From Sandaracinaceae bacterium (GTDB lineage Bacteria > Myxococcota_A > Polyangia > Polyangiales > Sandaracinaceae), in NCBI GenBank assembly GCA_040218145.1, contig JAVJQK010000063.1:1-64000 (forward strand): DNA of 64,000 nt, in the 5' to 3' direction. Positions 44,893 to 62,539 of this stretch are shown one piece after another (within the stretch, counting starts at the first letter, position 1; each line of letters starts with the position of its first letter). Under the pieces are notes generated by a model that saw only the letters and a program-made list of their open reading frames with translations, did no database searches and had not been told where the DNA came from. Made by a program: the position numbers and the translations under genes.

Positions 44893-45113
44893 CGTTCAGC
44901 CCCGGCGTCGACGGATCCCCACTGACGGACCACCGACACCTTCTTTCTCGGGGCCGGAGATGACCGGACACGCCTGAAATCACTGGCATATTCGGTTTTC
45001 TGACCAGAAAGGGAATGCGTGACGGGGGACAGACTGTCATAGCCCATGACATGATGTCCTCGACTGACATGCTGGCACCGCCCGCCCGACGGGGTGCCGA
45101 GGAGCGACGACCG
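44893..45113 (+). promoter_or_regulatory. Leader of sigma-54 activator gene with TGACA palindromes
   Basis: In the 220 bp before ATG 45114 there are overlapping inverted repeats: GACAG-A-CTGTC (45028-45038), TGTCAT-AGCCC-ATGACA (45035-45051) and TGACA-TGA-TGTC (45047-45058). The last has the same form as TGACA-GAA-TGTCA (46471-46483) in front of the gsp promoter. They look like activator binding sites and suggest self-regulation. An upstream start (ATG 45015) would put these sites inside the coding region. Confidence 0.55.
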
Positions 45114-46451
<1,338 letters not shown>

Positions 46452-46483: not shown

Positions 46484-46601
46484 GCGCGGCGAGTGAGAAC
46501 CCGGGACCCGCTGCCATCCTGTCGATCGCGCAGGTGTCACAGGTGCGGCTTAACCCTGCAAATTCAGCGTTTTTCCTGGCATCGACCCGGGCTCTGAGCT
46601 A

Positions 46602-46615
46602 GGCACGGCCGTTGC
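46602..46615 (+). promoter_or_regulatory. Sigma-54 promoter of the gsp operon
   Basis: The core GGCACGGCCGTTGC has GG (46602-46603), exactly ten bases, and GC (46614-46615). It matches the consensus TGGCACG-N4-TTGC(A/T) at all positions except the first T, which is A. Transcription would start near 46627, leaving a leader of about 50 bases before the gspC GTG at 46680. Confidence 0.8.
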
Positions 46616-46679
46616 TGTTCCTCAGGTCGGGCCCTCTCTTTCCGAGCGCGCGCGGCCCGTCTCCGGAGAACCCTCGAAC

Positions 46680-47657
46680 GTGGCATCCAGCAGCCGACAG
46701 CGACGCACCGTCGCCGCCATCCTGCTCTCGACCCTCGGCCTCACGGGCATCCTCGTGGCGCAGGGGGGCACGCAGATCATCGCCGCTGCGGCGCTGCCCC
46801 TCGATCCGTCCGCCGTCGCCCCCGCCCCGCTCGGGGACGTGCGCCCCGCCCCGCCCGAAGAGGTGGACGCGACGGGCATCCTCCGGCGCAACATCTTCGA
46901 CTCCGAGACCGGGCCCCTCGAGCGCAACCCGCCGGTGGCCGTCGTCGACGAGCCCGTGGACGAGGAGCCCGAGGAGATCGACCCGAACGCCCCGCCCCCG
47001 CGCTGTGACGGGAGCATGCGGCTGGTCGGCGCCTTCGTGCGCATGCGCAGCCCGGACGACTCCTTCGCGGCCATCACGAACGCGACGGGCGAGGCGCTGC
47101 TCTACCAGACGGGCATGGAGATCGACAGCCGCGAGGTGCTCGCCATCCAGCACAACCGCGTGATCTTGCGGCCGCGCGGCGGGAGCCCCTGCTCGCTGAC
47201 CATGTTCGCCGCCGACGAGGACGAGCGCGTGGCCACCGCGCCGGCGCCGGCCCGCCCCACCCCCGCGCGACCGCGGCGCGCCAGCGCGGACGGCCTCGAC
47301 CCGGCCGCGCTCGAGGCGGGCATCTCCCAGGTCAGCGAGCGCGAGTACGCGATCGATCGCGGCCTCGTCAATCAGCTCCTCGCCAACCAGGCCGCCCTGA
47401 TGCGCACCGCGCGCGTCATCCCGCACGAAGAGGGCGGGCAGGTCGTCGGCGTGAAGCTGTACGGCATCCGGCGCAGCAGCCTGCTCGGCCGCCTGGGCAT
47501 CCAGAACGGCGACATGCTGCGCACCATCAACGGCTACGACATGACCGCGCCCGACAGCGCCCTCGAGGCGTACGCGCGGCTGCGCAGCGCAGACCGAATC
47601 ACGATCAACCTGAACCGACGCGGGTCGGATCAGACGATCGACTACCAGATCCGCTGA
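46680..47657 (+). CDS. gspC: Type II secretion inner membrane protein GspC
   Basis: The 325-aa protein starts at GTG 46680. It has one N-terminal membrane helix (about 10-38, AILLSTLGLTGILVAQGG), a Pro-rich linker, and a homology region (about 105-165, MRLVGAFVRMRSPDDSFAAI...) that binds the secretin. A C-terminal PDZ domain (about 225-320) has SLLGRLGIQNGDMLRTING. GspC couples the inner membrane platform to GspD. It is the first gene of the operon, 65 bp after the GC element of the sigma-54 promoter. ILRRNIFDS in the linker is a family signature. Confidence 0.9.
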   Translation: MASSSRQRRTVAAILLSTLGLTGILVAQGGTQIIAAAALPLDPSAVAPAPLGDVRPAPPEEVDATGILRRNIFDSETGPLERNPPVAVVDEPVDEEPEEIDPNAPPPRCDGSMRLVGAFVRMRSPDDSFAAITNATGEALLYQTGMEIDSREVLAIQHNRVILRPRGGSPCSLTMFAADEDERVATAPAPARPTPARPRRASADGLDPAALEAGISQVSEREYAIDRGLVNQLLANQAALMRTARVIPHEEGGQVVGVKLYGIRRSSLLGRLGIQNGDMLRTINGYDMTAPDSALEAYARLRSADRITINLNRRGSDQTIDYQIR

Positions 47658-47677
47658 GTCCTCACGGAGCAACGCGA

Positions 47678-50248
47678 GTGAAGCTACGTTTCGCCATTCC
47701 GATCCTGCTGACGAGCGCGTCGGTGATGTTCTGCGCGCTCGGCATGGCCGTCGCGCAGCCGCAGCGCCCGCAGGTTCGCATCCCGCGCCCGGGTCAGACG
47801 CCGCAGGTGCAAGAGCAGGAGGACGAGGCGCCGCAGCCCGCGGGCAAGCTGCGCCCCTTCCGCACCGGGCTCGAAGACCGCCCGAGCCGCCGCGTGCCGC
47901 CCGGCGCGCGCGTGGACTTCACGCTCGAGGACGCGGATCTGCCGGACCTCGTCCGCATGATCAGCCGCATCACCGGCAAGCGCTTCATCCTCCCGGGCAA
48001 GGCGCGCTCCATCAAGGCCACCGTCGCGAGCGAGGCGCCCGTCAGCGCCGCCGAGGCGTACCGCGCGTTCCTGTCGATCCTCGAGCTGAACGGCATGACC
48101 GTCGTGCCCTCGGGTCGCTACCTGAAGATCGTCGAGACCGCCGGCGCGGAGAGCCAGCCGCTGCCGCTCTACACGGACGGCGAGGCCACCCCGCGGGACG
48201 ACCGCTACGTGACGCGCATGCACCGCGTCGAGAACGTGTCGGCCGAAGACGTCGCGACGCTGCTCGGCCGCTTCAAGTCGCGCGAGGGCAACATCACCGC
48301 CTACGCGCCGACCAACACGATCATCATGACGGACACCGGGACGAACATCCGGCGGATGCTGCGCATCCTGCAGGAGATCGACGTCCCACGGACCGGCGAG
48401 CAGATCTGGATCGAGCCGATCCACTACGCGAACGCCACCGAGATGGCCGCGCGACTGCAAGAGATCTTCCCGAGCGCGGGCGGCGGGAGCAGCGGCGGCG
48501 CGACCGCGTCCAAAGCCAGAGCCACGCCCAGACGCGCGACGCCACGAAGACCGGGCCAGCCGGCGCAGGCCGCGGCCGCCGCGGGGCCGACCACGGTGGG
48601 CTCGCGCAGCGGTGAGAGCCGGATCACCAACATCATCCCGGACGAGCGCACCAACTCGCTCATCCTGCTCGCGACCGAGCGCGCCTACATGCGCATCCTC
48701 GAGGTGATCCGCGCGCTCGACATCCCCGTCGAGGGCGAGGGCTCCATCCACGTCCACCAGCTGCAGTACGCCGACTCCGAGCAGATGGCGCAGACGCTCC
48801 AGAGCCTGATCGGCGGCGGCGGCGGCTCGGCCGCCAGCAAACGGGCCACCAAGCAGGGCGGCGTGACCGGGGCCACCGGAGGCGCGGGCGGGGCCTCGTT
48901 CGAGGGGCAGATCGCCGTGCAGGCGCACAAGTCCACGAACTCGCTGCTCATCACCTCGTCGCTCCACGACTACGTGGCGCTCCGGCGCGTGATCCAGCGG
49001 CTCGACGTGTCGCCGCGACAGGTCTTCATCGAGGCGGTCATCATGGAGCTGAGCGTGCAGCGCTCGAGCAGCCTCGGCCTCTCGTTCCACGGCGGCGTCC
49101 CGGACGCGCCGGAGGAAGGCGCCCTGAGCCTCTTCGGCTTCGAGGCGAGCCGCTCCGCCGGCCTCGACCCGAGCAGCCTGCTGACCGGCCTAGCGGTCGG
49201 CATCCGCGGCCCCGAGGTCCCGCAGTCCGCGCAGCTCATCGGCGTCTCGATCCCGAGCTTCGGCGTGGTGCTCAACGCCATCGCCAACTCGGGAGACGTC
49301 AACGTGCTGTCGACGCCCCACATCATCGCCATGGACAACATCCAGGCGGAGATCACCGTCGGCGCCAACGTCCCCCTCCAGACGTCCGGCCTGCTGGGCG
49401 GGCTCGGAGGCGGCGGCGGGCTCGGCGCGCTCGCGGGAGCGGCCGGTCAGCAGGGGGGCGCGGGCGCGCTCGGCGCCCTCGGCGCGCTCGGCGGCCTCGG
49501 CGGCCTCGGCGGCGGGCTCGGCGGCGGCGTGCAGCGGCAGAACGTCGGCACCACCATCCGCATCACCCCGCACATCAACGACGCGGGCGAGATCCGGATG
49601 GAGATCGAAGAGGAGATCTCGGAGGCCGGCGAAGCCCAGGGCACGCTCGGCGTGATCCCGATCAACCAGCGCATCGCCAAGACCCAGGTGGTCGTGCGCG
49701 ATCAGGAGACGATCGTCATCGGCGGGCTGATGCGCGACCGCGTGTCGACGAGCGAGGACAAGATCCCGATCCTCGGCGACATCCCGCTCCTCGGCGTGCT
49801 CTTCCGGCGTCAGTCCACGACCACGCAGAAGACCAACCTCCTGCTCTTCCTCACGCCGTACATCATCCGCTCACCGGCCGATCTGCGCGCCATCTTCGAG
49901 CGCAAGATGCGTGAGCGGCAGGAGTTCATCGACCGCTACTTCGTCTTCAGCGACTCGGGCTACACGCCGGCCACCGATTACTCCCGCACGCGCGGGCTGG
50001 TCGGGGAGATCCTCAACACCATCGAGGCCGAGCAAGAGCGGCAACGCCTGATGCAGGAGATGGAGGCGCGGCCGCCGCCGGAGCACAACCCGCGGCCGCC
50101 GATCGGCTCTGCGCCCTTCGACGCGACCGAAGGGGAAGAGGGCGCGGTGATCATCGGGCCCGACGGCGAAGAGAGCATGGACACCTCCTCCGAAGGGGGC
50201 GAGTCCAACATCCAGGTCGAGGCGGAAGCCGAGACCGGAGAAGAATAG
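47678..50248 (+). CDS. gspD: Type II secretion outer membrane secretin GspD
   Basis: The 856-aa protein has a signal peptide (PILLTSASVMFCALGMAVA), then an N0 domain (VDFTLEDADLPDLVRMISRITG, about 75-130) and N1-N3 repeats (about 165-440). The secretin core (about 440-740) ends with PLLGVLFRRQSTTTQKTNLLLFLTPYII. It forms the large outer membrane ring. A Gly-rich stretch (about 570-620, e.g. GLGGLGGGLGGGVQ) sits in the gate loop, between NVPLQTSG and VGTTIRITPHIN. Another Gly/Ala/Arg-rich insert separates N2 and N3. The acidic tail (about 790-856) is extra. An inverted-repeat hairpin follows before gspE. Confidence 0.95.
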   Translation: MKLRFAIPILLTSASVMFCALGMAVAQPQRPQVRIPRPGQTPQVQEQEDEAPQPAGKLRPFRTGLEDRPSRRVPPGARVDFTLEDADLPDLVRMISRITGKRFILPGKARSIKATVASEAPVSAAEAYRAFLSILELNGMTVVPSGRYLKIVETAGAESQPLPLYTDGEATPRDDRYVTRMHRVENVSAEDVATLLGRFKSREGNITAYAPTNTIIMTDTGTNIRRMLRILQEIDVPRTGEQIWIEPIHYANATEMAARLQEIFPSAGGGSSGGATASKARATPRRATPRRPGQPAQAAAAAGPTTVGSRSGESRITNIIPDERTNSLILLATERAYMRILEVIRALDIPVEGEGSIHVHQLQYADSEQMAQTLQSLIGGGGGSAASKRATKQGGVTGATGGAGGASFEGQIAVQAHKSTNSLLITSSLHDYVALRRVIQRLDVSPRQVFIEAVIMELSVQRSSSLGLSFHGGVPDAPEEGALSLFGFEASRSAGLDPSSLLTGLAVGIRGPEVPQSAQLIGVSIPSFGVVLNAIANSGDVNVLSTPHIIAMDNIQAEITVGANVPLQTSGLLGGLGGGGGLGALAGAAGQQGGAGALGALGALGGLGGLGGGLGGGVQRQNVGTTIRITPHINDAGEIRMEIEEEISEAGEAQGTLGVIPINQRIAKTQVVVRDQETIVIGGLMRDRVSTSEDKIPILGDIPLLGVLFRRQSTTTQKTNLLLFLTPYIIRSPADLRAIFERKMRERQEFIDRYFVFSDSGYTPATDYSRTRGLVGEILNTIEAEQERQRLMQEMEARPPPEHNPRPPIGSAPFDATEGEEGAVIIGPDGEESMDTSSEGGESNIQVEAEAETGEE

Positions 50249-50258
50249 GAAAGCTGGT

Positions 50259-50290
50259 ACGCGCGGAAGGAAAACCGTCCTACCGCGCGT
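50259..50290 (+). promoter_or_regulatory. Intercistronic hairpin between gspD and gspE
   Basis: ACGCGCGG-A-AGGA (50259-50271), a 6-base loop and TCCT-A-CCGCGCGT (50278-50290) form a stem of 12 pairs with one A.A mismatch. It lies between the gspD stop and the gspE ribosome site (AGGAGAG). It could stabilise the upstream mRNA, cause partial termination, or set relative GspD and GspE levels. No U-tract follows. Confidence 0.6.
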
Positions 50291-50302
50291 CAGGAGAGAC
50301 GA

Positions 50303-52303
50303 ATGGAGCAGCAGCGTTACGTCGGTGAGATTCTGGTCCGCCGGGGCGCCCTCGAGGAGGCCCGGATGGAAGAGCTGCTCCAGACCGCGGTCGAGAAGGA
50401 CGTCGACTTCCTGGATCTCCTCTTCGCGTCTCGCGAGCAGGACGAGCGCCCCATCGTCGAGGCGCTCGCGGACGAGGTCGGCATCCCCTTCCGGGAGGTC
50501 ATCAAGGCCGAGCACGTCTCGCTCGAGCTGATCGAGCTGGTGCCGATCACGTTCGCACGTGCGCACGGCATCTTGCCGCTCGAGGAGCGCGACGGTCGCG
50601 TGCACGTCGCCGTCTCGAACCCGCTCGACCCCGCGCCGCTCGACGACCTGCGCGCGCTGCTCGGCAAGCCGGTGGAGCCCGTCGCGGCGACGGGCGAGCT
50701 GATCGAAGACCTGATCAACGCGATCTACGAGCGCAAGGCCGAGGCCGAGATCGGCCAGGACCACGCGGAGGAGGAGGACGAGCTCCAGGACCTCATCGAC
50801 ATGACCGACGAGGCGCCGGTCATCCGCTGGGTCAACAACCTCTTCTACAACGCGTCGCGCAGCAACGCGTCCGACATCCACATCGAGCCCGGCGACAAAG
50901 AGGTCGTCGTCCGCAACCGGATCGACGGCAAGCTCTTCGTGGCCAAGACCGCGCCCAAGAGCGCGCTCGCGTCGATCGTGAGCCGCGTGAAGATCGAGGC
51001 CGGGCTCAACATCGCCGAGAAGCGCCTCCCGCAGGACGGCCGCATCACGAAGAAGATCCAGGGCCGCCTGATCGACGTGCGCGTCTCCTCGATCCCGACC
51101 GCCAAGGGCGAGCGGATCGTGATGCGTCTGCTCGACAAGGAGAAGATCCTCCTCGACCTGACGGACCTCGGCTTCTACGGCGGCCGGCTGCAGACGATGC
51201 AGCACCTCATCACGCGCCCGAACGGCATCATCCTCGTCACCGGCCCGACCGGCTCGGGCAAGACGACGACGCTCTACGCGTGCCTGAGCCGCATCAACTC
51301 CCCCGACCGGAACATCCTCACCGCCGAGGACCCGGTCGAGTACGAGCTGCCCGGGATCGGTCAGCTGCAGATCCACCCGAAGATCGGGCTGAGCTTCGCG
51401 TCCGCGCTGCGCTCGTTCCTGCGGCAGGATCCCGACGTCATCATGGTCGGTGAGATCCGGGATCACGAGACGGCCGAGATCGCGATCCACGCGTCGCTCA
51501 CCGGCCACCTCGTGCTCTCCACCCTGCACACCAACGACGCGGCCGGCGCCGTCACGCGCATGGTCGAGATGGGCGTGCAGCCGTTCCTGATCAGCTCGAG
51601 CGTCCTCGGCGTGATCGCCCAGCGCCTCGTGCGTCGCCTCTGCAAGCAGTGCCGTCAGCCCTACCGCCCGAGCGCGCAGGACTTCCGCTCGCTCGGGGTC
51701 GACGCGGCGCGCTTCGAGGCGCTCAAGGGCTCGGGCGTGCAGACCTTCCGGGGCCTGACCCACGAGGCCGAGGCGGGCGCGGAGGACACGGCCGAGGACG
51801 CGGCGGACGACGCGGCCCAGCTCAGCGGGCCGGAGCTCGCCGGCCTCGATGTAGCGGGCCTCGAGGTCGAGGAGCTCGAGGGCCTCGAGGAGATGAGCGC
51901 CGAGCCCACGCGCGTGTTCGCCTCGCCGGAGGAGGAGCTCCACATCGCCGAGCCGCCGCCGGGCGTGGACGTCGCCGACCTCGAGGGCGGCGAGCGCCTC
52001 TCCCAGGTCCCGGCCGGCTTCCCGGACGAGCTCGATCGGGCGGTCTTCTTCCGCGCCACGGGCTGCGAGGAGTGCAGCCACACCGGGTACCGCGGCCGGG
52101 TCGCGATCAGCGAGATGCTGATCATCGACGAGCCCGTGCGCCGCGAGATCCTCAACCAGGCGGACGCGGCGACCATCTCCCGCGTCGCCCAGACGCGCGG
52201 CATGCGCAGCCTGCGCGAGGACGGCGCGCGCCTCGTGCTCACCGGCACGACGAGCCTCGAAGAGGTCCTCGCCGCCACGCAGGCCGGCGAGGGGATGGAC
52301 TGA
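50303..52303 (+). CDS. gspE: Type II secretion ATPase GspE with large insert
   Basis: The 666-aa cytoplasmic ATPase powers pseudopilus growth. It has an N1E domain (about 1-150), Walker A GPTGSGKTTTLYA (about 314-326), the Asp box and Walker B IMVGEIRDHETAEIA (about 381-395). The C4 zinc site normally has about 29 residues between its two CxxC pairs; here they are Cys447/450 (CKQC) and Cys588/591 (CEEC), 137 residues apart. The insert (about 470-580) is strongly acidic, with Glu/Asp/Leu repeats (e.g. AGLDVAGLEVEELEGLEEM). The start ATG 50303 has AGGAGAG upstream. gspF follows by 3 bp. Confidence 0.95.
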   Translation: MEQQRYVGEILVRRGALEEARMEELLQTAVEKDVDFLDLLFASREQDERPIVEALADEVGIPFREVIKAEHVSLELIELVPITFARAHGILPLEERDGRVHVAVSNPLDPAPLDDLRALLGKPVEPVAATGELIEDLINAIYERKAEAEIGQDHAEEEDELQDLIDMTDEAPVIRWVNNLFYNASRSNASDIHIEPGDKEVVVRNRIDGKLFVAKTAPKSALASIVSRVKIEAGLNIAEKRLPQDGRITKKIQGRLIDVRVSSIPTAKGERIVMRLLDKEKILLDLTDLGFYGGRLQTMQHLITRPNGIILVTGPTGSGKTTTLYACLSRINSPDRNILTAEDPVEYELPGIGQLQIHPKIGLSFASALRSFLRQDPDVIMVGEIRDHETAEIAIHASLTGHLVLSTLHTNDAAGAVTRMVEMGVQPFLISSSVLGVIAQRLVRRLCKQCRQPYRPSAQDFRSLGVDAARFEALKGSGVQTFRGLTHEAEAGAEDTAEDAADDAAQLSGPELAGLDVAGLEVEELEGLEEMSAEPTRVFASPEEELHIAEPPPGVDVADLEGGERLSQVPAGFPDELDRAVFFRATGCEECSHTGYRGRVAISEMLIIDEPVRREILNQADAATISRVAQTRGMRSLREDGARLVLTGTTSLEEVLAATQAGEGMD

Positions 52304-52306
52304 GCC

Positions 52307-53533
52307 ATGGCGGTCTACGAGTGGCGCGGCATCACGACCGCCGGCAAGGAGGTCAAGGGGACCCGCGACGCGGACAACCCCCGCGTCCTGCGCACCACGC
52401 TGCGCAAGGACGGCATCCTCGTCACGGAGGTGCTCGAGGAGTCGGAGGCGCGCGTCAAGAAGGCGCGCGAGGTCGACTTCGGCCGCTACTTCCGTCGCGT
52501 CTCCGCGCTCGACCTCGCGCTGGCCACCCGGCAGCTCGCCACCCTGCTCAAGAGCGGCGTGCCGCTCGTGGAGTCGCTCAGCGCGCTGACCGAACAGCTC
52601 GAGAAGCCCGAGCTCAAGAGCGCCTTCACCATCACGCGCGACAGGGTGAACGAGGGCACGAGCTTCGCGGACGCGCTCGGCCAGCACCCGACCATCTTCA
52701 AGCCGCTCTTCGTGCACATGGTCGGCGCGGGCGAGGCCTCCGGCACCCTCGAGGTGGTGCTCGCGCGCCTCGCGGACTTCCTGGAGAACCAGGCCAAGCT
52801 CCAGAACACCGTCGTCGGCGCGCTCGTCTACCCGGTGATCATGCTCGGCATGACCATGCTGACGGTGGCGATCATGATGATCGTCGTCGTGCCGAAGGTC
52901 ACCGCGATCTTCGAGGACTTCGAGCAGGCCCTCCCCTGGTACACGCTGGCCCTCATCGGCTTCTCGAACTTCCTCAGCGGCTACTGGTGGCTGCTGCTGA
53001 TCCTCTCGGTCGGCGGCGGCTACGGCTTCATGCGCTGGAAGAAGACCGACAAGGGCAAGGCCAAGTGGCACGCCTTCGTCCTCGACATGCCGCTCTTCGG
53101 CAAGCTCAACCTGATGGCGGCGGTCGCGCGCTTCGCCCGCACGCTGGCCACCCTGCTCTCGAGCGGCGTGCCGCTGCTCCGCGCGATGGAGATCACGCGG
53201 AACGTGCTCGGCAACGTGGCCCTCGAGAAGGTCATCGAGGACGCGCGCAACTCCATCCGTGAGGGTGAGAGCATCGCGCAGCCGCTCAAGCGCTCGGGCC
53301 GGCTGCCGCCCATCGTCACCCACATGATCGCGGTCGGCGAGCGCTCCGGTCAGCTCGAGGAGATGCTCGAGAACGTGGCCGACAGCTACGAGCAGCAGGT
53401 CGAGTCGCGCGTCACCGTGATGACGGCGCTCCTCAACCCGCTGATGATCCTGATCCTCGGCGGCATGGTCGTCGCGGTCATCTTCCCGATCCTCTTGCCG
53501 CTCATGCGGATCAACGAGTTCGTGGCGGGGTGA
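52307..53533 (+). CDS. gspF: Type II secretion inner membrane platform protein GspF
   Basis: The 408-aa protein has an N-terminal strand (VYEWRGITTAGKEVKGTRDADN) and two homologous helical halves (about 75-195 and 270-400). Each opens with a LATRQLATLLKSGVPLVESL or FARTLATLLSSGVPLLRAM signature. Membrane helices lie at about 170-195, 220-245 and 375-400. It is the polytopic platform that meets GspE and the pseudopilins. ATG 52307 follows the gspE stop by 3 bp. Confidence 0.96.
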   Translation: MAVYEWRGITTAGKEVKGTRDADNPRVLRTTLRKDGILVTEVLEESEARVKKAREVDFGRYFRRVSALDLALATRQLATLLKSGVPLVESLSALTEQLEKPELKSAFTITRDRVNEGTSFADALGQHPTIFKPLFVHMVGAGEASGTLEVVLARLADFLENQAKLQNTVVGALVYPVIMLGMTMLTVAIMMIVVVPKVTAIFEDFEQALPWYTLALIGFSNFLSGYWWLLLILSVGGGYGFMRWKKTDKGKAKWHAFVLDMPLFGKLNLMAAVARFARTLATLLSSGVPLLRAMEITRNVLGNVALEKVIEDARNSIREGESIAQPLKRSGRLPPIVTHMIAVGERSGQLEEMLENVADSYEQQVESRVTVMTALLNPLMILILGGMVVAVIFPILLPLMRINEFVAG

Positions 53534-53536
53534 TGG

Positions 53537-53974
53537 GTGGCCATCATGACGCGAAGGCGACGCGGCACCCGCTCCATCTCGCTCCCCTGGGAGCGGCGGG
53601 GGGCGTGGATCCGCGAGCTGCTCGCGGGGCGGCGCTGGAAGGTGCTGCTCGCGGCGCTGGTGGGCCTCGCGGTGCTCTACGGCGTGGGCCGCGCGGCGGA
53701 GCAGCGCCAGCGGGAGCGCGAGACGCGGGCGGCCATCGCGGAGATCAAGCGCGGGCTCTCGGCCTTCCGGGCGGACCTCGGGCGCTGCCCGCACTCCTTG
53801 CACGAGCTGATGCACCCGCCGCGCAGCGGCCGGCGCTACCTCCGGCAGGTGCCGCTCGACGGCTGGGGGAACACCTTCTTCGTGAGCTGCCCGGGTCGCT
53901 ACGACCCGGAGGGCGCCGACGTCGCCAGCGCGGGGCCCAGCGGCAATTTTCTGATCGACGACAACATTCAGTGA
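53537..53974 (+). CDS. GspG-like protein without a prepilin signal
   Basis: The 145-aa product starts at GTG 53537; ATG 53546 is an alternative. An Arg-rich start and one membrane helix (about 33-52, VLLAALVGLAVLYGVG) are followed by a helix (IAEIKRGLSAFRADLGRCPH) and the GspG-type end LDGWGNTFFVSCPGRYDPEG and SAGPSG. The fold therefore looks like the major pseudopilin, but no (G)F/MTLxE cleavage motif is present. It lies 3 bp after gspF, exactly where gspG is expected, and is followed 7 bp later by a canonical pseudopilin. It may be an anchored assembly factor or an unprocessed pseudopilin. Confidence 0.8.
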   Translation: MAIMTRRRRGTRSISLPWERRGAWIRELLAGRRWKVLLAALVGLAVLYGVGRAAEQRQRERETRAAIAEIKRGLSAFRADLGRCPHSLHELMHPPRSGRRYLRQVPLDGWGNTFFVSCPGRYDPEGADVASAGPSGNFLIDDNIQ

Positions 53975-53981
53975 GGAATCG

Positions 53982-54416
53982 ATGAACGTTCGAAGCTATG
54001 CACGCATCCGCGGGGCTCTGCGCCGCGGGACCCTGCGCCGCGGGACCCTCCGCCGCGGCGCCCGGCGCCGCGAAGGCATGACGCTCGTGGAGATCATGAT
54101 CGTCGTGATCATCATGGCGCTCATCGCGACCGCGGTCGGCGTCGCGGTGCTGCCTCGCCTCAAGCAGGCGCGCATCGACAGCAGCCGCACCGACGCGCAG
54201 TCCGTGCGCGGCGCCGCGGTGATGTACGTCTCGGAGAACCCGGGCGGCGACTGCCCCTCGGTCGAGGATCTGACCGAGGGCGGCTACCTCGACAGCTCGC
54301 GCCGCACCACCGACGCCTGGGATCGCGACTTCCTCATCGAGTGTGAGGGCGACGACATCATCGTGATCAGCGCCGGGCCCGACACCGAGATGGGCACCGA
54401 GGACGACATCCAGTAG
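53982..54416 (+). CDS. gspG: Major pseudopilin GspG
   Basis: The 144-aa prepilin has a long basic leader with three RRGT-type copies (about 9-30, e.g. ALRRGTLRRGTLRRG), then the cleavage motif GMTLVEIMIVVIIMALIA, where peptidase GspO would cut after Gly32. A helix and a GspG-like beta end (TTDAWDRDFLIECEG, VISAGPD) follow. It is the main subunit of the pseudopilus. The leader is about 32 residues, longer than the usual 6-12. It is translated just after the preceding GspG-like gene. Confidence 0.9.
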   Translation: MNVRSYARIRGALRRGTLRRGTLRRGARRREGMTLVEIMIVVIIMALIATAVGVAVLPRLKQARIDSSRTDAQSVRGAAVMYVSENPGGDCPSVEDLTEGGYLDSSRRTTDAWDRDFLIECEGDDIIVISAGPDTEMGTEDDIQ

Positions 54417-54418
54417 CC

Positions 54419-55189
54419 ATGGCCTCCCGGGACACGACGATGGGACCTCTGCCGGCGCGCGCGCGCCGGGGGGGATCCATGCGTCGTGTCCGCCGCTCAC
54501 CCTCGATGCGGCGGCGCGGCATGACCCTGATGGAGGTCATCGTCGTCGTGATCATCGGGGCGCTCGCCGTCACCGGGATCACCTACGGCATCGGCGCCAT
54601 CACCCGCGCCAACCTGCGCTCGGGCGCGATGACCTTCGCCGCCGCGTCGCGCTTCGCCTACGGCCGCGCCATCGCGGAGAACAGCACCGTCCGGCTGAAG
54701 CTCGACTTCGAGACGAGCCAGATGAGCTTCGAGGAGGCGCACGGCAACGTGACCCTCGCGCGCATCGGCGACGCCACCCGCCAGGACCTCGAGGAGGAGG
54801 ACGGCGACGACGGCGCCGCGGTCGATCCCTGGGCCGCGGCCCAGGCGCGCCTCGAGGACACGCTCAACCCGTCCTTCGGCGCCTCGCCCTTCGCGACCAT
54901 CCCCGGCCGCCGCTATCAGGCGCGCGAGCTGGCCGACGGCGTGCGCGTCGTGCGCCTCTTCGTCCCGCACGAGCCCGAGCCGCTCGAGGAGGGGACCGGC
55001 GCGGTCTACTTCTTCCCGGGCGGCCAGACCGAGCACGCGGTGGTGTGGCTCGGCGACAGCTCCGACCGCATCTACTCCGTGGAGATCCACCCGCTCACCG
55101 GCCGCGCGCAGGTCTATGACTACGCGTACGAGCCCGAGCAGCTCCTCGACGACGGCGAAGGCGCGACCCGATCGGAGGTCGACGACTGA
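54419..55189 (+). CDS. gspH: Minor pseudopilin GspH
   Basis: The 256-aa product has a basic leader of about 34 residues, the cleavage motif GMTLMEVIVVVIIGALAVTG and a long C-terminal beta domain (about 90-250) with an acidic EEEDGDDGAA insert. Start codons at 54419, 54479 and 54506 are all possible; the motif is reached from each. The stop shares one base with the next start. It is placed as GspH by order and size: second pseudopilin of the cluster. Confidence 0.85.
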   Translation: MASRDTTMGPLPARARRGGSMRRVRRSPSMRRRGMTLMEVIVVVIIGALAVTGITYGIGAITRANLRSGAMTFAAASRFAYGRAIAENSTVRLKLDFETSQMSFEEAHGNVTLARIGDATRQDLEEEDGDDGAAVDPWAAAQARLEDTLNPSFGASPFATIPGRRYQARELADGVRVVRLFVPHEPEPLEEGTGAVYFFPGGQTEHAVVWLGDSSDRIYSVEIHPLTGRAQVYDYAYEPEQLLDDGEGATRSEVDD

Positions 55190-55884
55190 TGCGCAGGAAG
55201 ATCTTCGGCGCGTTCACGCTCCTCGAGGTCATGGTCGCGGTCGCGATCCTGGGCATCGCGCTCACGGCCATCTTCTCGAGCGAGGCGGGGGCCATCCGGG
55301 TCGGCGCGCGCGCGCGGCACATGTCCGTCGCGTCGCTCCTCGCGCGCTGCAAGATGGGCGAGATCGAGGAGAACATCCTCCGCGAGGGCATGCCCGCCGT
55401 GAGCGACGACGGGCGCGACGAGTGCTGCGAGGGCGGCGAGCAGCAGGGCTTCCGGTGCGAGTGGAGCGTCGAGCGGGTGGAGCTGCCCGACGCGCTCGAC
55501 ATGGGCGCCGACGACCCCACGAGCGCGCTCGGGAGCCTGACCGGCGATCACGAGGGCGACACGGCCAACCCCGCCGACATGCAGAACGCGCTCGCCGGCG
55601 CGGCGGGCGGCGACGCGCTCGGGTCCTTCGCCGTGCAGTTCGCCTTCCCCGTCCTGCGCCCCGCCATCGAGGAGCAGGTCCGGCGCGCGACGGTGACGGT
55701 GTTCTGGGCCGAGGGCGAAGACGAGCGGTCCTTCGACGTCGTGCAGTACCTGGTCGCCGACCAGGGCTCGATGACGAGCGCGGACGATCCATCGGGCGCC
55801 ACCGCGCCGGGCACGCCTGGCAGCCCAGGCGCGCCGGCCACGCCGACCATCCCGCGCATCGGTCTGCCGGGAGCGCAGCGATGA
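55189..55884 (+). CDS. gspI: Minor pseudopilin GspI
   Basis: The 231-aa prepilin has a short leader and AFTLLEVMVAVAILGIALT (cleavage after Ala8; the usual -1 Gly is replaced by Ala in GAFTLLEV). The following helix includes SEAGAIRVGARARHMSVASLLARC and KMGEIEENI, typical of GspI. A Pro/Gly/Ala-rich tail (about 205-231) is extra. ATG 55189 overlaps the gspH stop, and the stop overlaps gspJ by 4 bp. It acts at the pseudopilus tip. Confidence 0.88.
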   Translation: MRRKIFGAFTLLEVMVAVAILGIALTAIFSSEAGAIRVGARARHMSVASLLARCKMGEIEENILREGMPAVSDDGRDECCEGGEQQGFRCEWSVERVELPDALDMGADDPTSALGSLTGDHEGDTANPADMQNALAGAAGGDALGSFAVQFAFPVLRPAIEEQVRRATVTVFWAEGEDERSFDVVQYLVADQGSMTSADDPSGATAPGTPGSPGAPATPTIPRIGLPGAQR

Positions 55885-56576
55885 GGCGGACGCTCAAGGG
55901 CATGACGCTCATCGAGATCATGGTCGCGGTGACCATCCTCGCCATCGTCTCGACCGTCATCTTCGGCGGCTTCTCGACGACGATGCGGAACAAGGCGCGC
56001 GTCGAGCAGATGGCCGACCGCAGCCACGTGATCCGCGTCGCGATGGAGCGCATGGTCGCGGAGCTGTCGCAGGCGTACGTGTCGATCCAGGTCAACCCGA
56101 ACCCCGCGCTCCAGATGATGAACACCTGCTTCATCGGCGGGCGCAGCGGGCGCGGGCATCGCGTCGACTTCACCAGCTTCAGCCACCGGCGGCTCTACCG
56201 GGACGCGCACGAGTCGGACCAGAACGAGCTGAGCTACTTCATGACCTCGCACCCGGAGGACCCGGGTCGCTACGTCCTCGCGCGCCGGGAGGACAACCGC
56301 CCCGACGACGATCCGCAGTCCGGCGGGACCACGATGATCCTGGTCGACGACGTGCTCGACTTCGAGGTGGAGTACTTCGACATCGCGACCAGCGAGTGGA
56401 GCGAGACCTGGGACACGCGCGAGATCACCGCGCAGCCCAACCGGCTCCCCGTGCAGGTGAAGATCTCGCTGACCGTGCCCGACGAGCGCGCCTCGAGCCG
56501 CCGCCGGACGTTCGTGACGCGCGCCGAGCCGCGCAACACCTGGGCCCTCAACCACGCCATCTACATCGCGCGATGA
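55881..56576 (+). CDS. gspJ: Minor pseudopilin GspJ
   Basis: The 231-aa prepilin has a 7-residue leader and GMTLIEIMVAVTILAIVSTV. The helix ends in SHVIRVAMERMVAELSQAYVS, and the beta domain has RVDFTSFSHRR and YFMTSHPEDPGRYVL, both GspJ features. It forms the tip complex with GspI and GspK. ATG 55881 overlaps the gspI stop (ATGA), and the stop overlaps gspK in the same way. Confidence 0.9.
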   Translation: MRRTLKGMTLIEIMVAVTILAIVSTVIFGGFSTTMRNKARVEQMADRSHVIRVAMERMVAELSQAYVSIQVNPNPALQMMNTCFIGGRSGRGHRVDFTSFSHRRLYRDAHESDQNELSYFMTSHPEDPGRYVLARREDNRPDDDPQSGGTTMILVDDVLDFEVEYFDIATSEWSETWDTREITAQPNRLPVQVKISLTVPDERASSRRRTFVTRAEPRNTWALNHAIYIAR

Positions 56577-58033
56577 CCCCGCAGGCACATGGCTCCTCCA
56601 TCCTGGGCCTCGGCGGCTCGATGGACTCGCGCGCGAGGGACTGGCGGCCGCCCCACCCGCACTCGATCCGGCGCGGGGCCGGCGCGCGCGAGAAGGGCAT
56701 CGCGCTCGTGCTCGCGATCATCGCGATCATGATCCTCGCCGTCGTGCTCTCGGACATGCACGAGAACACCGGCACCTCCTACGCGCTGGCGAGCACGCAG
56801 CGCGACCGGCTGCAGGCCGAGTACATGGCCAAGAGCGGGCTGAACCTGACCCGCATGCTCATCGGCAACGAGCAGCCCATCCGCCAGGCCGTCGCGCCCT
56901 TCTACCAGGCCGTGCTCCAGCGCCCGCCGCCCCAGCTGCCGATCTGGAGCTACGCGAACGACATCCTCGCGCCCTTCTGCAACTACGAGGCGGCGCAGGG
57001 GAACATCGAGCTGACCGGCGTGGACTTCAGCGCCGCGACCGGCCTCGGGGAGAACCCCGCGAGCTGCGAGATCATCGCCTTCGCCGAGAACTCGAAGCTC
57101 AACGTGAACAACCCGCTGCACATGGGCGGCGACCGCGGGCGGCTCAATGTCGCGCAGCAGGTCTTCGCGATGACCGGCGGCTACCAGGCGTCGAGCCCCT
57201 ACGACCCGCTCTTCGAGCGCCGCGACGCCGACAACCAGATCACCACCCGCCTCGACATCGTCGGCGCGCTGATCGACTGGTGGGACTACGACACGCAGCG
57301 CACCGTCTTCGACCCCGGCGCCAACAGCGTCGACAGCAACTCGGGCGCCGAGGACGACGTCTACGCGCAGTTCCGCGACCCCTACCAGGTGAAGAACGCG
57401 CCCTTCGACACCCTCGAGGAGCTCCGCTACATCCGCGGCGTCGGCGACGACTTCTGGGCCACCTTCGTCGAGCCGGATCCCGACGACCCGCGCAGCCGGC
57501 GCATCACCGTCTACGGCTCGGGCAAGGTGCACCTCAACGAGGCCGAGCCCGCCGTCCTGCTGGCTCGCACCTGCGCCATCCTCGTCGACCAGCCGCTCTG
57601 CACCAACCCCGCCGAGGCGGCGAAGTTCATCCAGATCATCGGCACCGCGCGCTCCCTCGCGCCCATCCCGTGGTTCGGCAACATCCCCGACTACATCCAG
57701 TTCCTGCGCGGCCAGGGCGACTCGGGCGAGCTGCGCCCGATGCTCGAGTCCGTGCTCGGCGCCGACAACGCGCTGTTGCCCGCGCCGGTCACCGTCTCCC
57801 CCGAGGCCGAGCGCTTCTTCCACCAGGGCTTCGTCACCGGCGCCGCCATCATCTTCATCCAGTCGACGGGGCGCGTCGGCGCCTGCGACGAGACCGATGA
57901 AGACGCCGTCGGCCGCTGCACCTCCATCCGCTTCCGGTCGGTCGTGAACTTCGATCCGCCCTGGACCCCACCGCCGCCGAACGCGGGCTCGATGCCCCGC
58001 ATGGGCGTCTTCCACCACTTCAGGATCGACTGA
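56573..58033 (+). CDS. gspK: Minor pseudopilin GspK
   Basis: The 486-aa protein has a long basic leader (about 1-40) and EKGIALVLAIIAIMILAVVL, the GspK motif without the usual +5 Glu. The body includes the SAM-like helical part (SNSGAEDDVYAQFRD, NAPFDTLEELRYIRGV) and KVHLNEAEPAVLLA, all GspK features. It caps the pseudopilus. The long leader again exceeds the usual size. Starting ATG 56573 overlaps the gspJ stop. Confidence 0.9.
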   Translation: MTPQAHGSSILGLGGSMDSRARDWRPPHPHSIRRGAGAREKGIALVLAIIAIMILAVVLSDMHENTGTSYALASTQRDRLQAEYMAKSGLNLTRMLIGNEQPIRQAVAPFYQAVLQRPPPQLPIWSYANDILAPFCNYEAAQGNIELTGVDFSAATGLGENPASCEIIAFAENSKLNVNNPLHMGGDRGRLNVAQQVFAMTGGYQASSPYDPLFERRDADNQITTRLDIVGALIDWWDYDTQRTVFDPGANSVDSNSGAEDDVYAQFRDPYQVKNAPFDTLEELRYIRGVGDDFWATFVEPDPDDPRSRRITVYGSGKVHLNEAEPAVLLARTCAILVDQPLCTNPAEAAKFIQIIGTARSLAPIPWFGNIPDYIQFLRGQGDSGELRPMLESVLGADNALLPAPVTVSPEAERFFHQGFVTGAAIIFIQSTGRVGACDETDEDAVGRCTSIRFRSVVNFDPPWTPPPPNAGSMPRMGVFHHFRID

Positions 58034-59628
58034 TGGCCACCATTCTCGGTCTCGACATCGACCCCCAGACCGTCCGCGCGGTCGCGGTCCGCACCGCGCT
58101 GCGCAAGACGGAGATCATCGGCTACTACCAGCAGCCCATCGAGCTGGCGCCCCCGCCCGAGGCCGGCGAGGGGGGCATCACCGTCACCGAGGCCGCGGGC
58201 GGCCCGGAGGACGCGCACCAGGCCGCGACCCGGCGCGCCATCCGCGGGGTGCTCGGCAGCCTGGGCCAGCCGCCCGACAAGGTCATCACCGAGCTGAGCG
58301 GCGACGAGGTCTCCATCCGCAAGGCGTCCTTGCCGTCCAAGGCGGCCAAGAAGCTCGACGAGCTGTTGCCCTTCGAGCTCGAGGGCAAGGTCCCCTTCGA
58401 CATCGCCGAGTCGATCGTCGACCACCAGCCGATCGAGACGGTCAGCGGGGAGCTGCGCATGCACGCGGCGGTCGTGCCGCGCGAGCGCATCGCCGCCCAC
58501 CTCGCCGAGATGCGCATGTTCGGGCTCGAGCCGCGGCACGTGGCCGTGGGCGCGGTCGCCCTCGACGGGCTCGTGCCGCTCCTGCCCGAGCTGTCGACGC
58601 CGGGGCCGCACGCGCTGATCGACATCCACCCCGAGGGCACCGACGTGTGCATCCTCGTCAACGGAGTGTGCCATTTCGCGCGCACGCTCTCGGTGACCAT
58701 CGCGGACCTCGACGCGGGCCGGCAGTCGGTCCTCGAGCGCGAGCTGCGCCAGACGCTCGCCGCGTGGCGCATGGAGGGCGGCTCGAGCCCGAGCACCTTC
58801 TTCGTGTGCGGGCAGATGGCGATCCGCCCGGGCACCGACGCGTGGCTCGGTCAGATCGTCGGCGCCCCGGTGGAGACGCTGCGCCTGCCGCAGGCGCCCG
58901 GGGCGGACGACGCCGTGCGGCCGGCCTTCGCGCGGGCGGCGGCGCTCTCCGGTCGCGCGCTGGCCCGAGGCAAGCACCTCGACGCGCGGCAGGGTCCGTT
59001 CGCCACCAAGCAGGCCGCGAACGCGCTGCGCGAGCACCTGCCGCTCATCGCGGCGTGCGCCACGGCCGTCGTCTTCGCCTTCATCTTCTCGAGCTACGCG
59101 CGCTACTCGGTGCTCGAGGCGCGTCATCAGCAGCTCGAGGACCAGCTGGCCGAGGTGACGCAGGAGTACTTCGGCACCGAGGCCCGGAGCGCGGACATGG
59201 CGCTGCGAGCGCTCTCGCGCGGCGCGCGGGGCGACGACCCGATGCCGAAGTTCGACGCGTACGACGCGCTCGAGGCGCTGAGCGCGGCCATCCCGACCGA
59301 GGTCACGCACGACGTGCGGCAGCTGCAGATCGATCTGGGCGACGGCGACGAGACGGGGCGCTTCTCGATCCGCGGCACCGTCGACAGCGTCAGCGACACC
59401 GAGCAGGTCGTGCAGGCCATCAACAACTACCGCGTCGTGCGCACCGAGGGCGACACCGAGACCCGGCTGCGCTGCTTCCACGAGCTGGACCTGGGCAACA
59501 CGACGTCCACGGCCGAAGACCGCCGCAGCTATCGCCTGGAGGGGCAGATCCGCTGCCTCCCCGAGGATCAGGAGCTGTCGGAAGAAGAGAGCAGCGGGCG
59601 CCGGGGCCGCCGCCGGAGGAGCAACTGA
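58033..59628 (+). CDS. gspL: Type II secretion assembly protein GspL
   Basis: The 531-aa protein has an N-terminal actin-like (PilM-like) cytoplasmic domain (about 1-310) starting TILGLDIDPQTVRAVAVRT. One membrane helix (about 340-358, LIAACATAVVFAFIFSS) and a periplasmic coiled-coil/ferredoxin-like part follow. GspL binds GspE in the cytoplasm and GspM in the periplasm. Its first base is the last base of the gspK stop, and its last base starts gspM. Confidence 0.88.
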   Translation: MATILGLDIDPQTVRAVAVRTALRKTEIIGYYQQPIELAPPPEAGEGGITVTEAAGGPEDAHQAATRRAIRGVLGSLGQPPDKVITELSGDEVSIRKASLPSKAAKKLDELLPFELEGKVPFDIAESIVDHQPIETVSGELRMHAAVVPRERIAAHLAEMRMFGLEPRHVAVGAVALDGLVPLLPELSTPGPHALIDIHPEGTDVCILVNGVCHFARTLSVTIADLDAGRQSVLERELRQTLAAWRMEGGSSPSTFFVCGQMAIRPGTDAWLGQIVGAPVETLRLPQAPGADDAVRPAFARAAALSGRALARGKHLDARQGPFATKQAANALREHLPLIAACATAVVFAFIFSSYARYSVLEARHQQLEDQLAEVTQEYFGTEARSADMALRALSRGARGDDPMPKFDAYDALEALSAAIPTEVTHDVRQLQIDLGDGDETGRFSIRGTVDSVSDTEQVVQAINNYRVVRTEGDTETRLRCFHELDLGNTTSTAEDRRSYRLEGQIRCLPEDQELSEEESSGRRGRRRRSN

Positions 59629-60263
59629 TGGATCGCCTCAGCGGCATGTTCGCGGGTCTCCGCACCTACTGGGAGAACCTCTCCGAGCGCGAGCGCATGC
59701 TCGTCGGCGTGATGGGCGGCGTGGCCGGCCTGCTCTTCATCCTCTTGCCGGTCTACCTGCTCAGCACGAGCATCAGCGACCTCGAGGAGGACAACCAGCA
59801 GATCACCGCCGCGCTGCGTCGCATCTCGCACTCCCGCGGCCGCCTCGCCGCGCAGCAGGCGGAGCGCGCGGCGGCGGAGATGCGCTACGGCCGGCAGGCG
59901 CCGTCCCTCGGCTCCTTCCTCGAGGCCAAGGCGGGTGAGTTCGAGGGCGTGGCCATCAGTGACGTGCAGCACGAGCCCGAGCGCGAGGAGGGCCGCTTCC
60001 GCATCCGGCACACGCGCGCCCGCTTCCAGGGCGTGGATCTGCGCAACGCGGTGCTCATGATGGAGGCCATCGAGAACAGCCGCTACCCCGTGGCCATCGA
60101 GCGCATCCACGTCGACCACCATCAATCCGGCGACCGCTACAACGTCCAGATCGGCGTGCTCGCCTTCGATCGCGAGGGCGGCGGCGCCGACGCTGGCGTC
60201 CCGGGCGCGCCCACCGCCGCGCCCGCCGACCGAGGCGGCCGCGCTGGCCCGCCTGCGCCCTGA
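59628..60263 (+). CDS. gspM: Type II secretion assembly protein GspM
   Basis: The 211-aa protein has a cytoplasmic start with LSERERMLVGVMGG, the standard GspM signature, and one membrane helix (about 25-48). A coiled coil (ITAALRRISHSRGRLAAQQAERAAAE) and a ferredoxin-like domain (about 115-185) follow, then a Pro/Gly/Ala tail. It forms a dimer with GspL in the inner membrane platform. ATG 59628 overlaps the gspL stop by one base. Confidence 0.88.
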   Translation: MDRLSGMFAGLRTYWENLSERERMLVGVMGGVAGLLFILLPVYLLSTSISDLEEDNQQITAALRRISHSRGRLAAQQAERAAAEMRYGRQAPSLGSFLEAKAGEFEGVAISDVQHEPEREEGRFRIRHTRARFQGVDLRNAVLMMEAIENSRYPVAIERIHVDHHQSGDRYNVQIGVLAFDREGGGADAGVPGAPTAAPADRGGRAGPPAP

Positions 60264-60285
60264 GCCTCGCCGACTGAAACCGACG

Positions 60286-61260
60286 ATGACCGATCGACTC
60301 AAGAAGATCCTGTTCTACGCGGTGGCGTGTCCACTGTTCTTCCTGTTCTCGCTGGTGGTGGGCGCGTACTTCACGTTCCCCTACGACCACGTGCGCGACT
60401 TCATCGTGCAGGAGGCCGAGCGCGGCGGATCGCTGCAGCTCGAGATCACGAGCCTCGAGCCCGACTGGGTCACCGGGGTCGAGGCGGAGGGCGTGCGCGT
60501 GGCCACGGTTTCGGACGACGCCGACGGGCCGCCGCCCGAGCTGCTCATCCGCCGGGCGAACGCGCGCGTCGGCCTGCTGTCGCTGCTCGGCGGCGACACC
60601 GACATCGACTACGCGCTCGAGCTCGACGGGGGCGGAACGCTCGAGGGCAACTACGCCAAGAGCGAGGAGAGCCTGCACATCGAGGCCGAGATCCAGCGCG
60701 TGGATCTACGGCGCGTGGGTCTGATCCGCGACGCCATCGGGCTCCCGATGACGGGCCGGCTCGAGGGCAACATCGACCTGACCGTCGGCGCCGAGGCGGC
60801 GGCCACGGAGGGCTCGGCCGACCTGACCATTCGCAACCTCTCGGTCGCGGACGGCGAGACCGCGCTGCAGATCGACGGGCTCGGATCGAGCGGCCTGACG
60901 CTCGAGCAGATGAACCTCGGCACCCTGCGCCTGAGGGCCGAGGTCGAGCGCGGCGCGGCGCGCATCCAGGAGCTGCACGCGGACGGCGAGCACGCGGAGA
61001 TCTGGGGCACGGGCAGCGTGCGCCTCGTGCAGCCGCTCCAGCTCAGCAGCGTCGACATGCTCTTCCGGATCAACTTCGAGGACGCCTACAAGACGTCGAG
61101 CCCCCGCATGGAGGGGCTCTTCGCGCTGCTCGAGGTGAACCCGCAGATCCGGCCCGCGCGAACCCCCAACGGCGCCTTCCAGTGGCGCATCCAGGGCAGC
61201 TTCGGCGGCCGCATGCGCATGGTCCCCAGCGGCCGCGCGCCCATGCCCGAAGCCGAGTAG
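60286..61260 (+). CDS. gspN: Type II secretion protein GspN
   Basis: The 324-aa protein has an N-terminal membrane helix (about 9-30, FYAVACPLFFLFSLVVGAYF), the FPYDHVRDFI segment, and then repetitive beta strands (LEITSLEPDWVTGVEAEGV, LEGNIDLTVGAEAAATEGS) of the GspN/AsmA-like type. GspN is optional in T2SS and its role is unclear. It is the last gene of the operon, 22 bp after gspM. Confidence 0.85.
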   Translation: MTDRLKKILFYAVACPLFFLFSLVVGAYFTFPYDHVRDFIVQEAERGGSLQLEITSLEPDWVTGVEAEGVRVATVSDDADGPPPELLIRRANARVGLLSLLGGDTDIDYALELDGGGTLEGNYAKSEESLHIEAEIQRVDLRRVGLIRDAIGLPMTGRLEGNIDLTVGAEAAATEGSADLTIRNLSVADGETALQIDGLGSSGLTLEQMNLGTLRLRAEVERGAARIQELHADGEHAEIWGTGSVRLVQPLQLSSVDMLFRINFEDAYKTSSPRMEGLFALLEVNPQIRPARTPNGAFQWRIQGSFGGRMRMVPSGRAPMPEAE

Positions 61261-61350
61261 CCCCGATCAGCCTCGCTCGCGGGGCGGCGCGGATGCGTCC
61301 GCGGACGCCGTGCATGCGGGCCCACGTGCGGCGTGCGCCAGCGGGAATCT

Positions 61351-62179
61351 GAGTCCTTCGCGTCCGAGTCCGCAGCCGCGTCCGCGTCGGGCGTCCGCGG
61401 CCGAGTCCGCCTCCGCGACCGAATCCGCCTCCGCGACCGAGTCCGCGTCCGCCACCGCGACCGAGTCCGAGTCCGCGTCCGCCTCCGCGACCGAGTCCGC
61501 CTCCGCGACCGAGTCCGCCTCCGCGACCGAGTCCGCGTCCGCCACCGCGACCGAGTCCGCGTCCGAGTCCGCGTCCGCCTCCGCGACCGAGTCCGCCTCC
61601 GCGACCGAGTCCGCCTCCGCGACCGCGTCCGCCTCCGCGACCGAGTCCGCCTCCGCGACCGAGTCCGCCTCCGCCTCCGAGTCCGCCTCCGCGACCGAGT
61701 CCGCCTCCCAAACCGAGTCCGCCTCCGAAACCGAGTCCGCCTCCGAGACCGAGTCCGCCTCCGCGACCGCGTCCGCCTCCGCGACCGAGTCCGCGACCGA
61801 GTAGTCCGCGACCGAGTCCGCCTCCGCGACCGAGTCCGCCTCCGCGACCGAGTCCGCCTCCGCCTCCGAGTCCGCCTCCGCGACCGAGTCCGCCTCCGAA
61901 ACCGAGTCCGCGTCCGCCTCCGCGACCGAGTCCGCCTCCGCGACCGAGTCCGCCTCCGCGACCGCGTCCGCCTCCGCGTCCGAGTCCGCGTCCGCCTCCG
62001 CGACCGAGTCCGCCTCCGCGGCCGAGTCCGCGTCCGCCACCGCGACCGAGTCCGCCTTCGCGACCGAGTCCGCCTCCGCGTCCGAGTCCGCGTCCGCCTC
62101 CGCGACCGAGTCCGCCTCCGAGTCCGCGACCGAGTCCGCCTCCGAGTCCGCGACCGAGTCCGCCTCCGAGTCCGCGACC
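61351..62179. repeat. About 830-bp low-complexity tract, 18-bp units (ESASAT)
   Basis: The unit GAGTCCGCCTCCGCGACC repeats with variants (6-bp and 12-bp insertions and losses). In the plus frame that starts at 61310 it encodes Ser/Ala/Thr/Glu runs until a TAG at 61802-61804. That TAG lies in AGTAGT, a 3-bp tandem duplication, and the same frame then continues open. In the minus strand it would encode VAEADS or GRGGGL runs. Codon third positions are equally GC-rich in the ESASAT and VAEADS frames. The plus frame resembles the Ser/Ala/Glu linker of the anti-sigma-like gene at 37.7 kb. Confidence 0.85.
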
Positions 62180-62301
62180 GTTCCCGAACCCGTTCCCGTG
62201 CCCGTTCCCGTTCCCGTTCCCGTTCCCGAACCCGATCCCGTTCCCGTTCCCGTTCCCGTTCCCGATCCCGATCCCGTTCCCGTTCCCGTTCCCGCGCCCG
62301 A
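62180..62301. repeat. CCCGTT/CCCGAT hexamer tract
   Basis: Directly after the 18-bp tract a run of CCCGTT, CCCGAA and CCCGAT hexamers begins. In the same plus frame it encodes alternating Val-Pro, Glu-Pro and Asp-Pro. The order of the two tract types is the reverse of that in the linker at 38.0-38.2 kb. Confidence 0.8.
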
Positions 62302-62539
62302 CGCAGCTACCGCGAGACCGAGTCCCCAGCCGCATCCGAATGCGAGTCCGCCCCCGAGGGCGACGCTCGGGTGGGTGGACTTGGCAGTCGTGGAGGGGCC
62401 CGGTACCACTCCGACGAGACGGACGAGCGCGAGCGCGTACCCACGCGTCGACCTGCACGGGCACGCGCTCCGCTCGCCCGTGCTTCGGGCGGCGCCTCGC
62501 ACGGCTGCGCTACCGGGAAACGAGGACGGGCACGGGCCC

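Follow-up and report, generated by a model that had tools for sequence, protein, structure and literature searches.

A strong hairpin at positions 50259 to 50290 occupies the spacer between gspD and gspE in the 64,000-nt window analyzed here, from a Sandaracinaceae bacterium. The reading we tentatively prefer, at somewhat below an even chance, is that this is an intercistronic hairpin lacking a U-tract and acquired by the lineage itself, which, if active, would act as a modest local stabilizer of the mRNA and as a spacer. A neutral insert is a close rival of this explanation.

The inverted arms of the hairpin (50259 to 50271 and 50278 to 50290, plus strand) were complementary at 12 of 13 positions, exactly where a preliminary description of the region had placed a 12-bp stem with one mismatch. 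Eight base pairs, whose arms form a perfect inverted repeat, are followed by a single A·A mismatch (50267/50282), four further base pairs, and a 6-nt loop at 50272 to 50277, the whole reading ACGCGCGG-A-AGGA-AAACCG-TCCT-A-CCGCGCGT, with AAACCG as the hexaloop. The fold energy predicted for the 32 nt was -20.5 kcal/mol. When the 54-nt gap alone was shuffled with dinucleotide composition preserved, 0 of 5,000 shuffles contained a 32-nt fold as stable (shuffle mean, -9.7; SD, 2.5), and the 91-nt stretch around the hairpin gave a z score of -3.15, with 1 of 200 shuffles equally good. The described stem was therefore borne out, and the hairpin is real and non-random. The stem-loop contains three U residues, the 10 bases 3' of the stem (CAGGAGAGAC) contain no T, and no U-tract follows the hairpin. 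A search of the 11.06-Mb genome returned one full match, the next best having an E value of 0.37 over 19 nt; there was no second copy, and a dispersed repeat was rejected on that ground. Rfam release 15 gave three weak matches across 49700 to 50800 (E values up to 5), far below the gathering threshold and none of them covering the hairpin, and a known RNA family was likewise rejected.

The gene upstream, gspD (47678 to 50248, plus strand, with its TAG stop at 50246 to 50248), was identified as the secretin by NCBIfam TIGR02517 (499 bits; cut-off, 351) and Pfam Secretin, and the gene downstream, gspE (50303 to 52303, plus strand, starting with ATG), as the ATPase by NCBIfam TIGR02533 (637.6 bits; cut-off, 630) and Pfam T2SSE and MshEN. 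In the 54-nt spacer (50249 to 50302) the gspD frame, which is also the gspE frame, remains open throughout, giving 18 codons without a stop in frame with both genes. The hairpin begins 10 nt after the gspD stop and ends 12 nt before the gspE ATG. One base 3' of the stem lies AGGAG (50292 to 50296, plus strand), the probable Shine-Dalgarno (SD) sequence of gspE, and the mean unpaired probability of 50291 to 50297 was predicted to be 0.58 to 0.67. Scanning both strands of the gap listed neither a terminator-like site nor a sigma-70-like promoter, and no sigma-70-type promoter was found by scan between 46000 and 62000.

Among the other products of the operon, GspC, GspF, and GspN were, like GspD and GspE, named by NCBIfam models above cut-off, while the pseudopilins, GspJ, GspK, GspL, and GspM were assigned from matches that reached or approached Pfam cut-offs or fell short of those of NCBIfam. 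The remaining gaps of the operon were at most 22 nt, the junction before gspI excepted, where the start is uncertain: 54419, the ATG at 54479, or a later position, 54521 being the choice of the gene caller. The statement that the hairpin sits in the only sizeable gap of the operon is accordingly right if gspI starts at 54419 and wrong if it starts at 54479 or later, which would leave a second gap of at least 62 nt. A stronger hairpin (54444 to 54475; -22.7 kcal/mol) was seen within the region 54417 to 54530, after the gene that precedes gspI and before the later candidate gspI starts. A pseudopilin gene at 53982 to 54416 carries in its leader a 15-nt tandem repeat at about 54013 to 54060, which in the same-species genome is one unit (15 nt) shorter.

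To place the hairpin against its genomic background, an 864-kb sample of the same genome was used, made up of 400 kb of contig C33, 380 kb of C50 (including 5 kb of N), and 84 kb of C63, with a GC content of 71 to 73%. On the plus strand of 46680 to 61260, 15 other nonoverlapping 32-nt places were at least as strong as -20.5 kcal/mol, and in the sample this value or lower was reached in 15 of 134 same-strand gaps of 32 to 100 nt, the gspD-gspE gap included. Raw hairpin strength is therefore not unusual in this genome, and it is against its own A-rich spacer that the hairpin stands out. Genes in the sample, including their starts, were called by codon usage with the author's own caller, and each gap of 32 to 150 nt was shuffled 60 times. 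Of 172 same-strand gaps, 14 held a hairpin beating all 60 shuffles, as did 3 of 11 convergent gaps but none of the 71 divergent gaps (same-strand versus divergent, Fisher P = 0.012), and only 4 of these 17 hairpins had at least four T residues in the next 10 bases. Since such hairpins follow transcripts and are mostly poor in U, they point to RNA-level roles rather than to DNA sites, and the gspD-gspE hairpin looks like one of this common class. Five of the 14 significant same-strand hairpins, again with that of gspD-gspE included, ended no more than 15 nt from the called start that follows. What the case mainly shows is that strong hairpins are common at 72% GC and that conservation or RNA data are needed before a function is assigned.

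A second allele was available for comparison. The assemblies MED-G138 and G056 gave identical alignments and are probably the same, and they were counted as one allele. It shares the 54-nt gap, which differs from the one under study by four substitutions, two in the linker (50256 and 50258) and two in the loop (50274 and 50277); none of the 24 paired bases had changed, the fold energy was the same, and no compensatory change separated the two stems. The chance of all four changes missing the stem was 0.087, with Fisher values of 0.12 and 0.13. Because 50277 may mark the end of the diverged tract, the 5' arm was also tested alone (Fisher, 0.10). At P values of 0.09 to 0.13 in a single allele, stem conservation is suggestive only. 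Divergence between the two genomes was 4/54 in the gap and 14/349 in the last 349 bases of gspD, with 0.8 to 1.0% in the surroundings. The tract of raised divergence, at 4 to 7% versus about 1%, spans the last part of gspD and the gap (49945 to 50277) and stops immediately short of the hairpin's 3' arm; it is perhaps a recombination tract. Of 23 hairpins from the genome under study, 19, including the gspD-gspE one, were matched in G056 and 4 were unmatched. In the matched set from these near-identical genomes, changed bases numbered 3/482 in stems, 2/99 in loops, and 23/2,090 in flanks, too few to give the comparison power; overall, stems were not clearly better kept than flanks, and both loop changes were those of the gspD-gspE hairpin. 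Elsewhere in the same-species genome (L153 and L156), the counterpart of G000:C50 near 373158 had about 40 extra nucleotides beside an intergenic hairpin, together with a second partial match to that hairpin.

Beyond the species, the hairpin was not recovered at the junctions read. All 56 genomes searched from the order, the present one among them, had matches to gspE, and 47 of the 50 best gspE loci retrieved had a readable junction, the other three (L015, L039, and L051) showing no gspD end. The genes overlapped or were separated by at most 20 nt at 34 of the 47 junctions, by 21 to 31 nt at 4, and by at least 32 nt at 9, own included. Folding was tested in 13 gaps of 20 nt or more with 200 shuffles each, and only in the gap under study were 0 of 200 shuffles as good. 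The one other gap with P < 0.05, near chance expectation for 13 tests, was that of L042 from another family, which measured 240 nt as placed by the gspD protein tail, was unrelated in sequence, and folded at -20.1, matched by 4 of 200 shuffles; the remaining gaps, among them the 28-nt gap of L011, also placed by the protein tail, gave P values of at least 0.07. G002, from the closest other genus (GspE 73% identical), has gspD and gspE overlapping as TGATG, with no gap and in different frames, and at all 46 other junctions the spacer was absent or different in size and sequence. Ten genomes of the family were searched, two of them of the same species. A scan of GTDB contigs, which may omit very near records, gave four loci, one of them of this species (Sandaracinaceae bacterium MED-G138, SHBB01000267.1).

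Among the genomes searched, then, the hairpin and its gap were restricted to the one species. Conservation with compensatory changes, which had been set beforehand as a test of the idea, was not borne out: none of the 12 other gaps matched, 34 of 47 junctions had no room for a hairpin, and in the one relative sharing it the stem was unchanged. As an element conserved across type II secretion (T2SS) operons the hairpin was rejected, the other junctions reading without it; in 47 junctions and 13 tested gaps it was shared by the same-species allele only. Its lack at the junctions of relatives means that a need common to all secretins or ATPases cannot alone explain it. The gap and hairpin would most simply be an acquisition of this lineage, with insertion as the direction we infer.

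On the preferred reading, about 50 nt would have been inserted between two genes that most relatives have adjoining or overlapping, and the spacer RNA would fold into a nuclease-resistant stem lying between the ribosome that ends gspD and the one that starts gspE. If the upstream gspC-gspD portion were processed into a separate fragment, the stem could cap its 3' end. With 32 of the 54 spacer bases folded away, about 22 unpaired nt would separate the gspD stop from the gspE start, and the ribosome site of gspE would be mostly open. Effects on decay, processing, or translation are ones we infer. Consistent with stabilization, the fold was unmatched by shuffling, the second allele keeps all paired bases at the same fold energy, shuffle-beating hairpins in the sample occur after stop codons and not in divergent gaps, the spacer has no listed terminator or promoter, and genes for PNPase and for an RNase E/G-family protein are present in the genome. 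Against it, stem conservation is weak, in one allele and with no compensatory change, and the other gspD-gspE junctions lack a hairpin. The preliminary description had proposed that the hairpin may set the ratio of secretin to ATPase. What stands of this is a non-random hairpin in an untranslated spacer, with the stem kept in the one other allele; partial termination is unsupported, and the expected conservation was not seen. Judged from the sequence, an RNA-level element is plausible and protection of the mRNA by the hairpin is possible, while control of the GspD:GspE ratio by it, though possible, is unsupported and would not be a general solution because relatives do without the hairpin. It appears quite improbable that the stem divides the mRNA in two, with the gspC-gspD part outliving the part from gspE onward, and so raises the secretin:ATPase ratio by RNA processing. 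Were stabilization true, a single palindromic insertion would have given an operon control of its subunit ratios, if on a small scale.

The nearest counterparts are the stabilizer stem-loops (SSLs) of selective RNA processing and stabilization (SRPS) operons, such as cip-cel of Ruminiclostridium cellulolyticum, which are likewise intergenic stem-loops without a U tail (PMC8219983; see also PMC4423207 and PMC10311766). A multisubunit complex is encoded by SRPS operons and by the gsp operon alike. The gspD-gspE hairpin is a stable intergenic stem-loop inside an operon, and it has no poly(U) tail, three U residues, and none in the next 10 bases, where the SSL rule given in PMC8219983 is no poly(U) tail and a U content of at most four. 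By its sequence the hairpin thus fits the rule for a stabilizer, a fit that does not prove membership of the class. In contrast to the cip-cel SSL (PMC8219983), it belongs to another phylum, at 72% GC, and is known from sequence alone. Protective RNA structures and differential decay have also been described in Escherichia coli operons (PMC5927463); there, too, the proposal is that structured RNA protects a portion of the operon mRNA, but the structures reportedly lie mostly within coding regions and are often conserved, whereas the gsp hairpin is intergenic and species specific. By title or start of abstract, none of the listed matches from the open-licence literature dealt with a gspD-gspE hairpin.

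The alternative that comes closest, and which we regard as a serious possibility, is self-complementary DNA inserted between the genes and tolerated since it folds up and hardly obstructs the gspE ribosome site, with no selected role. Its restriction to one species among the genomes searched, the overlapping genes of the closest other genus, the divergence of the gap, higher than anywhere else in the region, and the frequency of strong folds in this genome all favor it. Pure drift would not, however, be expected to enrich hairpins after stops, the insert has no second genomic copy, and the changes between the alleles fall in loop and linker and spare the stem, a contrast short of significance. 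Control of translation, in which a hairpin abutting the gspE SD would lower or tune initiation or couple it to gspD termination, draws on the closeness of stem, AGGAG, and ATG and on the hairpins that end just before called starts, although those starts come from the author's own caller. With the hairpin bases kept unpaired, predicted SD openness rose from 0.58-0.67 to 0.84-0.86, so the hairpin may slightly hinder rather than aid gspE, which also counts against stabilization; still, the SD lies outside the stem and is mostly unpaired, and the modeled effect is modest. Translational control is unlikely.

Partial termination, the other mechanism of the preliminary description, would lower transcription of gspE and later genes. 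A stable GC-rich stem-loop 3' of a stop codon resembles an intrinsic (Rho-independent) terminator, but this one lies inside an operon and lacks a U-tract; with no T in CAGGAGAGAC and no entry in the terminator scan on either strand, the idea was unsupported. An intrinsic terminator was rejected for want of a T-run directly after the stem, and a partial terminator or attenuator is very unlikely. Equally unlikely is a DNA-level site, be it a palindrome bound by a protein or a repeat of mobile origin. The perfect 8-bp arms speak for such a site, and the single genomic copy and the absence of such hairpins from divergent gaps speak against it. REP-type dispersed palindromes are palindromic intergenic sequences found inside operons; unlike these many-copy elements, the gsp hairpin is single in its genome. 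Read-through of the gspD stop into gspE, stimulated by a stem 10 nt past that stop, would use the shared frame and the 18 open codons of the gap. All four substitutions between the alleles would alter an amino acid, which speaks against read-through coding and led to its rejection. The two frames also differ in G002, there is little sense in fusing a secretin to a cytoplasmic ATPase, and the probability left to this reading is close to nil.

More about control of the operon is told by a sigma-54-type promoter, AGGCACGGCCGTTGCT, at 46601 to 46616 on the plus strand, 63 nt before the gspC start. It agreed with the sigma-54 consensus at 11 of 12 positions. A gene for an NtrC-type regulator, a sigma-54 activator, lies directly before the operon (45015 to 46451), and sigma-54 is encoded in the genome. 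Sites scoring 10 to 11 of 12 were present at the matching place, 3.56 to 3.84 kb before gspE, in nine of nine relatives, hand-picked as six of the family and three of the order, and in the same-species genome; in the relatives, an open reading frame of 325 to 336 codons begins 22 to 65 nt 3' of the site. Three of the nine loci held one further score-10 site elsewhere, and the 864-kb sample contained 31 sites scoring at least 10, so chance matches exist, but not at one fixed place. By this comparison, the putative promoter is far better conserved than the hairpin, and the gsp operon is probably driven by sigma-54. Among the listed open-licence matches, none dealt, by title or start of abstract, with a sigma-54 promoter for T2SS genes in a myxobacterium. 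At the other end of the operon, 3' of gspN, a long low-complexity repeat (61267 to 62500) was open in several frames on both strands, with readings rich in Ser/Ala/Glu/Thr, in Arg/Asp, or in Gly.
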